A program made the position numbers and the translations under genes. This document shows, one piece after another, positions 22,314-26,869 of a DNA stretch of 55,650 bases (position 1 is its first letter; the number at the start of each line of letters is the position of its first letter). Origin of the DNA: an uncultured Erysipelotrichaceae bacterium (lineage in GTDB: Bacteria; Bacillota_I; Bacilli_A; RF39; UBA660); NCBI GenBank assembly GCA_948439995.1, contig CAOJNP010000005.1, positions 1 to 55,650 of the forward strand. The letters run 5' to 3'. The notes beneath the pieces were generated by a model that did not search any database, was not told the origin of the DNA, and saw only the letters and a list, made by a program, of their open reading frames with translations.

Positions 22314-22523
22314 ATGAAAACAAATGCGAATGAAACTTTGAAATCTTTGAGAATTCAAAATGCTTTTACATATCAACAAATGGCTGATAAATGTGGAATA
22401 TGCAAGGCTTATTATTGGCAAATTGAACACAATAATCGTCGCTTATCTTATGAATTAGCAAAAAAAATTGCCAACATTTTTAAACTTCGTCCGGATGATA
22501 TTTTTTATGAATCAACTAATTAA
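22314..22523 (+). CDS. Small XRE-family regulator, paralogue 1
   Basis: 69 residues, almost entirely one Cro/C1-type helix-turn-helix (FTYQQMADKCGICKAYYWQIEHNNRRLS). It closely matches the 71-residue protein at 23359: both share YYWQIEH, RRL, LAKKIA and PDDIFYE. GGAGG precedes ATG 22314. spoVIF follows after 32 bases and may be cotranscribed. Confidence 0.8.
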   Translation: MKTNANETLKSLRIQNAFTYQQMADKCGICKAYYWQIEHNNRRLSYELAKKIANIFKLRPDDIFYESTN

Positions 22524-22555: not shown

Positions 22556-22798
22556 ATGGAACTTGGAGATGCTTTTTTTAAAAAGGTGGAAAAGAAGACA
22601 AAAGTAGATAAGGGAACTATTTTGTCTTTAGCAAATAAACTTCAACAAGGAAATATGAAAGATGAAAAAACACTAAGAGAAGTGATTCAAAGTCTTAGTG
22701 CATTAACAGGAAAAACTGTAAGTAAGGAAAGGGAAGACAAAATTATAAAAACAATTGTAAATGATGAAGTACCAAATAATGTAGAAAATATGTTTTAA
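22556..22798 (+). CDS. spoVIF: Sporulation protein SpoVIF
   Basis: 80 residues, near the usual ~88. The family pattern is clear: FFKKVEKKTKVDKGTILSLANKLQQGNMKDEKTLREVI, then GKTVSKEREDKIIKTIVN. In Bacillus SpoVIF is a late mother-cell protein needed for GerE-dependent coat gene expression and spore resistance. TAGGAGGG precedes the ATG. Its placement between two small XRE genes is unusual. Confidence 0.9.
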   Translation: MELGDAFFKKVEKKTKVDKGTILSLANKLQQGNMKDEKTLREVIQSLSALTGKTVSKEREDKIIKTIVNDEVPNNVENMF

Positions 22799-23358: not shown

Positions 23359-23574
23359 ATGAAAGATCAGTATCAAAAGCTTTTTGAATTACGAAAAATA
23401 TATCATTATTCTTATCAAGATATGGCAAATTTTTTAAAAATCAGTAAGTGTTATTATTGGCAAATTGAACATAAAAAAAGAAGATTGTATTATGATTTAG
23501 CTAAAAAAATCGCGTATGTTTTTGGATTAAAACCAGATGATATCTTTTATGAAGAAATAAAAATAACGAATTAA
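23359..23574 (+). CDS. Small XRE-family regulator, paralogue 2
   Basis: 71 residues, one helix-turn-helix (YSYQDMANFLKISKCYYWQIEHKKRRL), closely related to the 22314 protein. AAGGAGG precedes the ATG, and TATAAT lies at ~23332. It is followed by a terminator and then the DGQHR/HNH pair, so it may control that unit. Confidence 0.8.
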   Translation: MKDQYQKLFELRKIYHYSYQDMANFLKISKCYYWQIEHKKRRLYYDLAKKIAYVFGLKPDDIFYEEIKITN

Positions 23575-23619
23575 TTATCTCGTTATTTTTTTAGATCTTA
23601 ATTTTAAGATCTAAAAAAA
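23559..23619 (+). terminator. Two overlapping tandem hairpins before the DGQHR gene
   Basis: Hairpin 1: 11-bp stem 23559-23569 with 23580-23590, its right arm merging into a T run, so a normal terminator for the XRE gene. Hairpin 2: perfect 15-bp inverted repeat 23586-23600 with 23605-23619 around ATTT. They share the T run (23586-23590), so on one RNA they cannot both form fully. Hairpin 2 read on the minus strand is also flanked by T. Confidence 0.8.
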
Positions 23620-23624
23620 AGATA

Positions 23625-23653
23625 TTGACTTTTTGATCAGAAAGATTTATATT
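23625..23653 (+). promoter_or_regulatory. Promoter of the DGQHR-HNH pair
   Basis: TTGACT (23625-23630), 17-base spacer containing the palindrome TGATCA, TATATT (23648-23653), then GAAAGGAAG before ATG 23675. Confidence 0.7.
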
Positions 23654-23674
23654 TTGTTTGAAAGGAAGTTTTTT

Positions 23675-24856
23675 ATGAAGAAAGTGATTGTAAACAAAAT
23701 AACACAAAAAAGTGTAGATTTTTATTCTATGATTATTGATCCTAGATTAATTGCTAAGTTAAGAAAAAAATATACAGCTGGAGAAAAGCAAGATGTTCAA
23801 CGCCCATGGATTGAAAATAAAGTAAAAGATATTAGTGAGTATGTCGCTGGAAAAACAATTGTAGAGAATAAAAAATCATTGGGATTGATTCCAAATGCTC
23901 CCATTATTAATGTAAAAAAAGATTTAAGAGTTCAACAAGAAGAGATTACTATTATTGGATCCAATGGTGATCGAAGAGTAGAAACGCAGTATTTTATTTT
24001 ATTTCCCGAAACGGACGAAGAAATTGAAAATTGTCAAAATCAATTAGAAATTATTGATGGACAACATCGTATTATTGCTTTTGATCAAAGTTATATGGAC
24101 CCTAATTTTTCTAATGATCAACCTTATGAAATGAATTTTAGTTTGTTTGATAATTTAACTGATAATCAAAGAAAAGAAATTTTTATGGTGACCAATGAAA
24201 AACAAGATAAGGTAGCAAAAAATTTACTTCGTTATATTAAGAAATCTCTTGGATTATTAATTGGAGAAGATAACATAACTTATGATATTTTAGATTATTT
24301 GAATAATGAATCTTCTTCCCCACTATACCAAAGAATTATGTTTGGAGCTGATAAAATAAAAAAAGGTTATCAGGAAACACAAATGTCAAAAATTTTTAAA
24401 TTATATGGAGCTAAAAAGTTTTTTGATAATTATGTAGAAAAGCAATATGAAGAGGAAGCTATTTCAACATTTGCTATGATTATCAATAATTATTTAGGAG
24501 CTTGGGAAATTGCTTCAAATGTATCTTTTCAAAATCCGGAATCGGATACTATTACAAAAATAAGTGGATTACGTTATCTTTTATATATTTTTCAAGATAT
24601 TTGTATTCAATTAATGAATCATCGAAAAAAATTAACAAAAGAAAATTTTTTAGAAATTATTAAATTATTTCCAAAAGCATTGGATTTAGAAAATGTAAAA
24701 TGTGTTTTTTGTGATGATCGTAGTAATGATTCTAGTAGTATTATGATTGAAAGAAGTTTAGCATTCCGTGGGGAAGGTGCTACCATTGCTTTAGCGAAAA
24801 AAGATGTTCAAAAAGTAATTTCTTATCACAATGGGGAAAATGGTATTTTATTATAA
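23675..24856 (+). CDS. DGQHR-domain protein (DndB/DpdB-like)
   Basis: 393 residues. The diagnostic motif IDGQHRI lies near residue 128, in the block QLEIIDGQHRIIAFDQ, followed by the family's FSLFDNLTDNQRKEIFMVTNEKQDKVAKNLL segment. DGQHR proteins include DndB, the regulator of phosphorothioate DNA modification, and DpdB of the 7-deazaguanine DNA system; many others occur alone with unknown roles. ATG 23675 is chosen for GAAAGGAAG upstream; the frame extends 14 codons further. The next gene, an HNH nuclease, starts on the base after the stop codon. No dnd or dpd modification genes are in the window. Confidence 0.8.
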   Translation: MKKVIVNKITQKSVDFYSMIIDPRLIAKLRKKYTAGEKQDVQRPWIENKVKDISEYVAGKTIVENKKSLGLIPNAPIINVKKDLRVQQEEITIIGSNGDRRVETQYFILFPETDEEIENCQNQLEIIDGQHRIIAFDQSYMDPNFSNDQPYEMNFSLFDNLTDNQRKEIFMVTNEKQDKVAKNLLRYIKKSLGLLIGEDNITYDILDYLNNESSSPLYQRIMFGADKIKKGYQETQMSKIFKLYGAKKFFDNYVEKQYEEEAISTFAMIINNYLGAWEIASNVSFQNPESDTITKISGLRYLLYIFQDICIQLMNHRKKLTKENFLEIIKLFPKALDLENVKCVFCDDRSNDSSSIMIERSLAFRGEGATIALAKKDVQKVISYHNGENGILL

Positions 24857-25333
24857 ATGAGACCAAATATAGATAATCAAAAATTTAAGCAATTTCTTTT
24901 AATAAAATTATTTGAAAGTTTTGTGAAAAACATGAAAGATCAAGCAAAAGAACAGCAAATACGTCTTCGCTTTTTAAACTCTTCTAATAAAATATTGGTT
25001 ACAAAAAATTTGTTTTTTGAACAATTTCATTATAGTTTAAATGAAGAAGAAGCTGCTTTTTTATATCAATATTTTCATGCATATTATATGAAACGAAAAC
25101 AACGTCAATTTTATGATAATCAAGAGCGTTTAATCCTTTTACATCATCAAAATTATGAATGCAATTTGTGTCATAAAGCAATTACATTATCGAATAGTGA
25201 ATTAGATCATATTATTCCATGGAGTATGGTTGGAGATGAATTAAAAAATAATTTACAAATGTTATGTATTTCTTGTAATCGGAGAAAAAATAAAAATATT
25301 ATCATACCGTTTCCTAATGCTATTTTGTTTTAA
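24857..25333 (+). CDS. HNH endonuclease
   Basis: 158 residues. The C-terminal ~65 form a zinc-structured HNH nuclease: CxxC in YECNLCHKAI (~residue 100), catalytic His in LDHIIPWS, Asn in NNLQMLC, and the second Cys pair in LCISCNRRKNK. The N-terminal ~95 are helical and unassigned, with no recognised specificity domain. ATG 24857 directly follows the TAA of the DGQHR gene with no gap, so translation is probably coupled. A defence or selfish-element nuclease is likely; target unknown. Confidence 0.85.
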   Translation: MRPNIDNQKFKQFLLIKLFESFVKNMKDQAKEQQIRLRFLNSSNKILVTKNLFFEQFHYSLNEEEAAFLYQYFHAYYMKRKQRQFYDNQERLILLHHQNYECNLCHKAITLSNSELDHIIPWSMVGDELKNNLQMLCISCNRRKNKNIIIPFPNAILF

Positions 25334-25336
25334 GTG

Positions 25337-25365
25337 GAATAATTTTTTTTTTATAAACATATCTT
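25337..25365 (+). promoter_or_regulatory. Candidate sigma-E promoter of spoIVA
   Basis: GAATAAT (25337-25343), 14-base spacer, CATATCTT (25358-25365), close to the mother-cell sigma-E pattern. The predicted start leaves a ~20-base leader with GAGGT before ATG 25391. Inference from consensus only. Confidence 0.45.
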
Positions 25366-25390: not shown

Positions 25391-26869
25391 ATGGAGAAGA
25401 TTGATTTACTAGAAAGTATTGCTAAACGTGGCAATGGAGAAATTTATTTGGGAGTAGTAGGAGCTGTTCGTACTGGAAAAAGTACTTTTATTAAACGTTT
25501 TATTGAAAATTTAGTCGTACCAAATATTCAAGATGAAATTGAAAAAAAACGTTGTTTGGATGAAATCCCTCAAAGTGCACAAGGTAAAACGATTATGACA
25601 ACGGAACCAAAATTTGTGCCATCAAGTGGTGCTAAAATAGAAGTTGAAAATTTTAGTGCAGAAATTAAATTGGTTGATTGTGTAGGCTATGTCATTCCAA
25701 ATAGTAATGGATATGAAGATGTTGATGGAAATCCAAGAATGGTAAAAACACCTTGGTTTAGTGATTCTGTTCCATTTGTTGAAGCCGCAGAAATTGGAAC
25801 GGAAAAAGTAATTCGTGACCATTCTACCATAGGTATTGTAGTAACGACAGATGGATCTTTTGGAGAACTTACACGAAATGATTACATCGAAGCAGAACAA
25901 AAGGTAGTAATGGAATTAAAAAGTATTGGAAAACCATTTATCGTCGTATTAAATACTTCAAAACCAAATAGTAGCGAGGCGAAAGCTTTATCAAGAGAAT
26001 TAAAAGAAGCTTATGAAGTACCTGTTATGCCAATTAGTGTAGAAGAAATGAATGAAATAGATATTATGGAAATTTTAAAGCAAGCTCTTTATGAATTCCC
26101 AATTTTAAATATTGAAGTGAATATTCCAGAATGGGTTCATGTTCTTTCCAATTCTCACGACATTAAAAAACATTATTTAGAAAAAATTCGTGAAAGTGTA
26201 ACGGAAGTTACCAAAGTAAGAGATGTAGAAATGATTTTAGAACATTTTAAAGATAGTGAAATTATTTCAAATGCTTATATCGGTGAGTTAGATACTGCAA
26301 ATGGGTCAGTTACTATTAATTTAGAGAGTGATGATTCTCTTTACCAAGAAGTTTTAAAAAGTATGATGGGTGATAGTGTAACAACAAAAGCTGGACTTTT
26401 AAAGATTTTTGCAACTTATAGTGATGGTAGAGAAGAACTTGATAATATGAAACAAGCTATTAAAATGGCAAAAAGTACTGGTTATGGTATTGTTTATCCT
26501 ACTTTAAAGGATATGAAATTACAAACGCCAGAAATTATAAAACAAGGAAGTCGTTATGGAGTAAGATTAAAAGCAGTAGCAAGTAGTATTCACTTAATGA
26601 GAGTAGATGTAGAAAGTACGTTTGAACCAATTATAGGAAGTGAATTACAAAGTAAAGAATTAATTAATTATTTGATGAAAGATTATGAAAAAGATCCTTC
26701 TAGTATTTGGAAAAGTGAGATTTTTGGACGTAGTTTGGATGTCATTGTAAAAGAAGGAATACAGGCAAAATTATCCATTATGCCAGAAAATACCCGCTAT
26801 AAATTAAGCCAAACGGTTACTAAGATTGTCAATAAAGGGTCAAATAATCTGATTGCAATTGTACTTTAA
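25391..26869 (+). CDS. spoIVA: Stage IV sporulation protein A, coat-basement ATPase
   Basis: 492 residues, the length of Bacillus SpoIVA. Walker A GAVRTGKST (~residue 24), followed by the family's KFIKRFIENLVVPNI-like segment and LVDCVGYVIP as the Walker B-like region; also NGYEDVDGNPRMVKTPW and NTSKPNS. The C-terminal end (NKGSNNLIAIVL) is the conserved membrane-anchoring tail. It polymerises with ATP on the forespore surface as the coat's base. hup follows, as in Bacillus. Confidence 0.97.
   Translation: MEKIDLLESIAKRGNGEIYLGVVGAVRTGKSTFIKRFIENLVVPNIQDEIEKKRCLDEIPQSAQGKTIMTTEPKFVPSSGAKIEVENFSAEIKLVDCVGYVIPNSNGYEDVDGNPRMVKTPWFSDSVPFVEAAEIGTEKVIRDHSTIGIVVTTDGSFGELTRNDYIEAEQKVVMELKSIGKPFIVVLNTSKPNSSEAKALSRELKEAYEVPVMPISVEEMNEIDIMEILKQALYEFPILNIEVNIPEWVHVLSNSHDIKKHYLEKIRESVTEVTKVRDVEMILEHFKDSEIISNAYIGELDTANGSVTINLESDDSLYQEVLKSMMGDSVTTKAGLLKIFATYSDGREELDNMKQAIKMAKSTGYGIVYPTLKDMKLQTPEIIKQGSRYGVRLKAVASSIHLMRVDVESTFEPIIGSELQSKELINYLMKDYEKDPSSIWKSEIFGRSLDVIVKEGIQAKLSIMPENTRYKLSQTVTKIVNKGSNNLIAIVL

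Follow-up and report, generated by a model that had tools for sequence, protein, structure and literature searches.

The conserved motifs of GmrSD have been named QR, DGQxR, FxxxN and D/E-H-N-N (PMC4619093). In GmrSD and BrxU, a ParB/Srx-type protein of the DUF262 family with DGQ(Q/H)R, QR and FxxxN is combined with a DUF1524 HNH nuclease carrying D/E-H-N-N, and the two genes are either separate or fused. SspE and DndI each consist of a single protein and operate together with phosphorothioate modification genes; the DGQQR motif in them is the NTPase site through which sensing is coupled to HNH activity (PMC13251355, PMC11662687). Proteins of the DGQHR/DndB type have so far been known mainly as accessories of DNA modification, and their function is debated. 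DndB in Salmonella regulates its own operon through palindromes in the promoter (PMC4507180), and a DndB-like protein binds ATP and GTP (PMC12704722).

We analyzed a window of 55,650 nucleotides from an uncultured Erysipelotrichaceae bacterium, in which a DGQHR-domain gene is followed by an HNH nuclease gene (Table 1). The pair is similar to GmrSD and BrxU in its motifs, but its proposed sensor is of the DGQHR/DndB family instead of DUF262, its nuclease, in which four cysteines are the expected zinc ligands, belongs to PF01844 instead of DUF1524, and the unit has repeated AGATCT operator-like sites and a nuclease replaceable by a TIR protein. Like SspE and DndI, it couples an NTPase-like sensor to an HNH domain, of the nicking type in those proteins; unlike them, it has no phosphorothioate modification genes seen beside it. 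The DGQHR superfamily is shared with DndB (PF14072) and DpdB (NF041060), but the scores are far under the equivalog cutoffs and no dnd or dpd genes lie near the unit. Type II toxin-antitoxin systems are also two-gene operons with operator-like sites over the promoter, whereas this unit has a large NTPase-like regulator and immune-type effectors. Two relatives (L009 and L013) share TIR or DUF4062 domains with TIR systems such as Thoeris and with Swarozyc (DUF4062), but the text of the Swarozyc paper mentions no DGQHR protein. Judged by sequence comparison, the unit resembles the ParB/Srx-HNH systems yet falls outside the GmrSD, Dnd and Dpd families. We found no earlier description of it in the open-licence literature, and one may exist elsewhere. 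PADLOC contains no such system; with its models, the DGQHR protein matched DpdB weakly and the HNH protein matched several defense HNH models weakly.

Table 1. Features of the DGQHR-HNH locus and its surroundings (positions in the window).
Feature	Position	Strand	Evidence and remarks
SpoVIF gene	22556-22798		Upstream of the pair; PF14069, E 1.1e-22
Inverted repeat TTTTTTTAGATCTTAA-TT-TTAAGATCTAAAAAAA	23586-23619		16-nt arms, 100% complementary; two AGATCT, at 23593 and 23607
Inserted cassette, approximate	23617-25334		blastn versus five congeners; left edge uncertain, within 23559-23617
Promoter-like TTGACT-17-TATATT	23625-23653	+	Promoter scan; degenerate TGATCA site in the spacer
DGQHR-domain (DndB/DpdB superfamily) gene	23675-24856	+	393 aa; TIGR03187, 63.4 bits; putative sensor/autorepressor
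HNH endonuclease gene	24857-25333	+	158 aa; PF01844, E 1.8e-9; putative effector
spoIVA	25391-26869		Downstream of the pair; TIGR02836, 646 bits

At the join of the two genes (TAAATG), the HNH start codon begins at the base right after the DGQHR stop codon (TAA, 24854-24856), leaving a gap of zero. The longest reading frame of the DGQHR gene reaches back to a TTG at 23633; the ATG at 23675 was taken as the start because of the ribosome-binding site there and the agreement with all relatives. The initial annotation had described the two genes as abutting, transcribed from their own promoter, devoid of DNA modification genes and located between two sporulation genes, and this description was borne out. 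Both open reading frames and their families were confirmed, SpoVIF and spoIVA genes were found on the two sides, and the neighbors examined showed no dnd, dpd or ssp gene; no dpdA gene was seen in the flanking open reading frames. The candidate promoter had the top plus-strand score in the region, though the scan overall did not exceed the expectation from shuffled sequence.

Next, the family assignment of the DGQHR protein was examined. It scored above the TIGR03187 cutoff (58.85 bits), and all eight members found of its subfamily matched this model at E <= 0.01. Pfam DndB was subthreshold for the window protein (19.2 versus 29.1 bits) and was matched by all eight members at the E-value limit applied. 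The score against the DndB equivalog DGQHR_dnd_1 was 35 versus 450 bits, with no dnd genes in the neighborhood examined, and that against the DpdB model NF041060 was 38.3 versus 300 bits. DUF262 (PF03235) gave no match in the window protein at E <= 1, Pfam GmrSD_N matched four of the eight members with a best E of 0.084, and in an hhalign comparison of the DGQHR profile with DUF262 only the DGQ motif was aligned, with a probability of 15%. The structure model was mediocre (pLDDT 77.8, pTM 0.54); with it, Foldseek returned nothing significant, SspE and the ParB-like PadC appearing only at E 2 to 4, and the DGQHR profile found no match among solved structures. The motif residues themselves are intact: Q42-R43, D128-R132 (the DGQHR motif), F170 and N174 are invariant in the eight-member alignment, and the residue before the QR pair is V, N or A. 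A relation between DGQHR and DUF262 is thus suggested by shared motifs and the literature, the profile matches being weak. Elsewhere in the host genome (G000 contig 3, L128:4545-6809), a 754-aa DUF262 (GmrSD_N) protein is encoded beside a small XRE gene.

The HNH protein is predicted to consist of an N-terminal helical domain (helices within residues 7 to 78) and a C-terminal zinc HNH domain. C102, C105, D117, H118, N132, C137, C140 and N141 are invariant in the seven-member alignment, so that the GmrSD motif set QR, DGQxR, FxxxN and D/E-H-N-N is present in the unit and invariant in its eight- and seven-member alignments. The nuclease matched PF01844/HNH_5 and not DUF1524. Its AlphaFold2 model was confident (pLDDT 85.5), and its best structural matches, all at E above 0.001, were HNH nucleases such as Gme HNH, Cas9 HNH, McrA and CBASS Cap5. 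A SNaCT9 match to the N terminus (E 0.12) was dismissed as noise.

The eight loci found for the subfamily (the window, L006 to L011 and L013) are spread over Bacilli, Clostridia and Actinomycetes. L006 to L011 came from a profile scan of GTDB contigs, and L013 was added by a class-level search; single-sequence scans of the genome and viral collections returned zero relatives, whereas a two-sequence alignment did find relatives. Identity to the window DGQHR protein was about 70% for L006, L007 and L008 (L006 and L002 being the same contig), 46% over the alignment for L009 (a Lachnospiraceae metagenome-assembled genome [MAG]), 37% for L010 (an Aeriscardovia MAG), about 32% for L011 (an Oscillospiraceae MAG) and about 30% for L013. 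In this small sample, which includes three close relatives and comes mostly or entirely from MAGs, an HNH gene adjoined the DGQHR gene at seven of the eight loci. The HNH gene comes second at five of them (the window, L006, L007, L008 and L010), abutting or overlapping by one or a few bases, and first at L011 and L013. Homologues that were rarely adjacent would have spoken against the initial annotation, and this was not what we saw: since the same pair was found again at six further loci, the adjacency is not due to chance. The pairwise identities of the DGQHR and HNH proteins correlate (r = 0.90, 21 nonindependent pairs). DGQHR and HNH are a genuine two-gene unit.

Units of this subfamily are rare. 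Within the host family, full-length relatives were present in 2 of 193 genomes, that is, in one besides the host (71% identity); one further genome had a marginal match (E 9.4e-4) without the DGQHR-HNH pair. The unit was found in 2 of 385 genomes of the host order and in single genomes of the phylum (1/344), Clostridia (1/321) and Actinomycetes (1/178) samples, the sole member being in each case the genome used as the center. A second match in the Clostridia sample was a distant protein inside a 765-aa frame. When the subfamily DGQHR proteins were compared with phages and plasmids by tblastn, no match was found. The HNH profile retrieved only generic HNH cores (about residues 74 to 153) from the viral contigs, none at a locus with a DGQHR gene.

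The exception to the HNH pairing was L009, where a TIR-domain gene occupies the position of the HNH gene (PF13676, E 2.9e-13). At L013, a DUF4062 gene is present in addition to the HNH gene (PF13271, E 2.4e-29). DUF4062 has been reported as a TIR-like NADase domain with antiphage activity (PMC13174449). According to these domain matches, both the replacement and the added effector are NADase-type immune domains.

We then examined the 120-bp region preceding the first gene of each locus. AGATCT occurred 15 times in these eight regions, the number predicted from the background of each locus itself being 0.14; there were two sites in the window, two in L006, three each in L007, L008 and L011, one each in L009 and L010, and none in L013. 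Seven of the eight loci thus have it upstream, in most cases as repeats around the promoter. Because AGATCT had been noticed in these sequences before testing, the shuffle test scored the best of all palindromic hexamers; the six nonredundant regions contain 12 AGATCT sites, and the top palindromic hexamer reached at most 9 across 3,000 shuffles. At six loci, AGATCT flanks or sits inside a TTGACA-type promoter. The promoter spacing is 17 bp in the window, according to the promoter scan, and, as read by eye, at L006, L007, L008, L009, L011 and L013. L010 has a single site and no clear promoter, and L013 has the same operator layout but with TTTACATGTAAA, in which ACATGT takes the place of AGATCT. 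The sites are kept at the TIR locus L009, so HNH is not needed for the operator. As the only gene common to all loci, and with the operator persisting where TIR replaces HNH, DGQHR is the likely regulator; its product is probably an autorepressor of its own promoter, as DndB is. The AGATCT repeats were absent upstream of ten units of a membrane protein plus DGQHR and of one further DGQHR gene, all of other subfamilies. A search for the operator pair in viral contigs gave 34 stretches, 0 of them with a DGQHR gene in an open reading frame check. A D12 methylase, considered for Dam-type methylation of the GATC core, was not found in the host genome.

Comparison with five congeners (L050 to L054) showed how the pair came to lie between sporulation genes. 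Their DNA can be aligned with two parts of the window, one spanning about 21.9 kb to 23.55 kb and the other beginning at about 25.33 kb, with blastn similarity ending at 23548 to 23558 and restarting at 25324 to 25365; the cassette is absent, and the gap between the XRE gene and spoIVA is short. Since the same site is empty in these congeners, the pair arrived as an insertion of about 1.7 kb. No transposase or integrase was found inside the insert, and its GC content (25.5% versus 27.3% for the window) is not unusual. In L006 to L008, the unit lies elsewhere, following secA, and is surrounded by differing cargo (Fic, GNAT, RhuM-like). Therefore, the pair is a mobile cassette that carries no mobility genes and moves horizontally. 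The variable cargo after secA in these three loci, which includes the DGQHR-HNH pair, suggests an insertion hotspot. The spore genes are the landing place of the cassette, and the spoVIF and XRE neighbors are native. Besides SpoVIF, two small XRE genes and, on the opposite strand, a larger one lie upstream of the pair. The XRE regulators, which the initial annotation had associated with the unit, were rejected as members because the five congeners without the cassette have them too. The small XRE genes (22314-22523 and 23359-23574) are paralogous and flank spoVIF and the opposite-strand gene, which has two HTH domains; at the DNA level, the congeners examined remain similar across this region.

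What, then, does the unit do? Our best reading, which we hold to be probable, is a compact, horizontally moving, self-repressed two-gene sensor-effector module of antiphage immunity. It builds on the observed unit, its recurrence, the intact motif residues, the shared operator-like sites, the effector replacement and the empty sites; it is favored because of the invariant DGQHR and HNH motifs, the match to the GmrSD motifs and the literature on SspE/DndI and DndB-like proteins. From these we infer a dual role of DGQHR, as repressor and as sensor, and an antiphage function. The DGQHR protein, ParB/Srx-like and presumed to bind nucleotides, would bind AGATCT-type palindromes in its own promoter, keeping expression low, and would also control the cotranslated HNH nuclease. 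The trigger would be a phage-related signal, perhaps an altered nucleotide pool, a phage protein or particular DNA, in response to which DGQHR would release or activate the effector. The HNH effector would then cut DNA, and the TIR variant would presumably deplete NAD instead.

The two-gene operon with abutting or overlapping stop and start codons, the operator-like sites around the promoter, the lack of partner modification genes and the patchy distribution would also fit a toxin-antitoxin addiction module, with HNH or TIR as the toxin and DGQHR as the antitoxin and autorepressor, kept mainly by postsegregational killing. However, the regulator, of about 390 aa, is larger than its effector and belongs to a family linked with DNA modification systems and NTP binding, the TIR swap and the DUF4062 addition are typical of immune sensors, and no plasmid match was found. 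We consider such a module rather unlikely; defense of the toxin-antitoxin type overlaps with the immune-module reading, and sequence alone cannot separate the two. The initial annotation had proposed a two-gene unit that senses modified DNA and cuts it. Its sensor-plus-nuclease part remains the best reading, given the adjacent HNH gene at seven of eight loci, whereas the sensing of modified DNA found no support. Type IV restriction in the narrow sense would have DGQHR recognize modified DNA (phosphorothioate, 7-deazaguanine or hypermodified phage bases) and HNH cut it. It would fit the two-part design and motif set, which are those of GmrSD, BrxU and SspE, and the place of the homologues DndB and DpdB in DNA modification systems. 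It is nevertheless improbable: the roles described for DndB (regulator) and DpdB (modification cofactor) are not those of a modification reader, and the Tyr before QR that senses phosphorothioate in SspE/DndI is V, N or A here, a comparison that uses the literature motif and no strong alignment. An HNH nuclease within a compact insertion missing from congeners could, finally, be a selfish homing endonuclease with DGQHR as an accessory, as had also been suggested initially. This suggestion did not hold up and is very improbable, because the insertion is intergenic, with no intron, intein or split gene, the insertion sites differ among relatives, the HNH core is generic, the DGQHR partner is always present in this set, and TIR can replace HNH.

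Other DGQHR subfamilies were also seen. In one of them (viral contigs L021, L022, L024 to L029, L031, L033 and L035; also L014, L016 and L020), the DGQHR gene lies head to tail with a gene for a small protein with several membrane spans by hydropathy (ten loci checked). Many of the viral-contig pairs adjoin a D12-class-like DNA methylase gene (profile check for L021 only). Such pairs may follow the same idea with a membrane protein as the effector. L017, L018, L019 and L043 encode proteins of 565 to 764 aa with a DGQHR/DndB-like part, beside DNA methyltransferase-like genes; their N-terminal region looks nuclease-like by eye, with weak Card1/NERD matches for L043 only.

The AGATCT operators, the TIR swap, the added DUF4062 and the empty sites go beyond what the initial annotation had noticed, and the unit is a candidate missing from the PADLOC library. 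As a tentative generalization, which we regard as possible, DGQHR proteins could be the sensor/autorepressor core of small immune modules that form a broad, unrecognized class and have interchangeable effectors: HNH, TIR, or HNH plus DUF4062-type NADases, and, in other subfamilies, small membrane proteins (prophage pairs) and possibly nuclease-like N-terminal fusions beside DNA methyltransferases. A stand-alone unit in which the effector is exchanged and the operator shared is a minimal, testable system for DGQHR binding and its relief, and it lets one ask whether proteins of the ParB/Srx type, also outside DUF262, act generally as immune switches.
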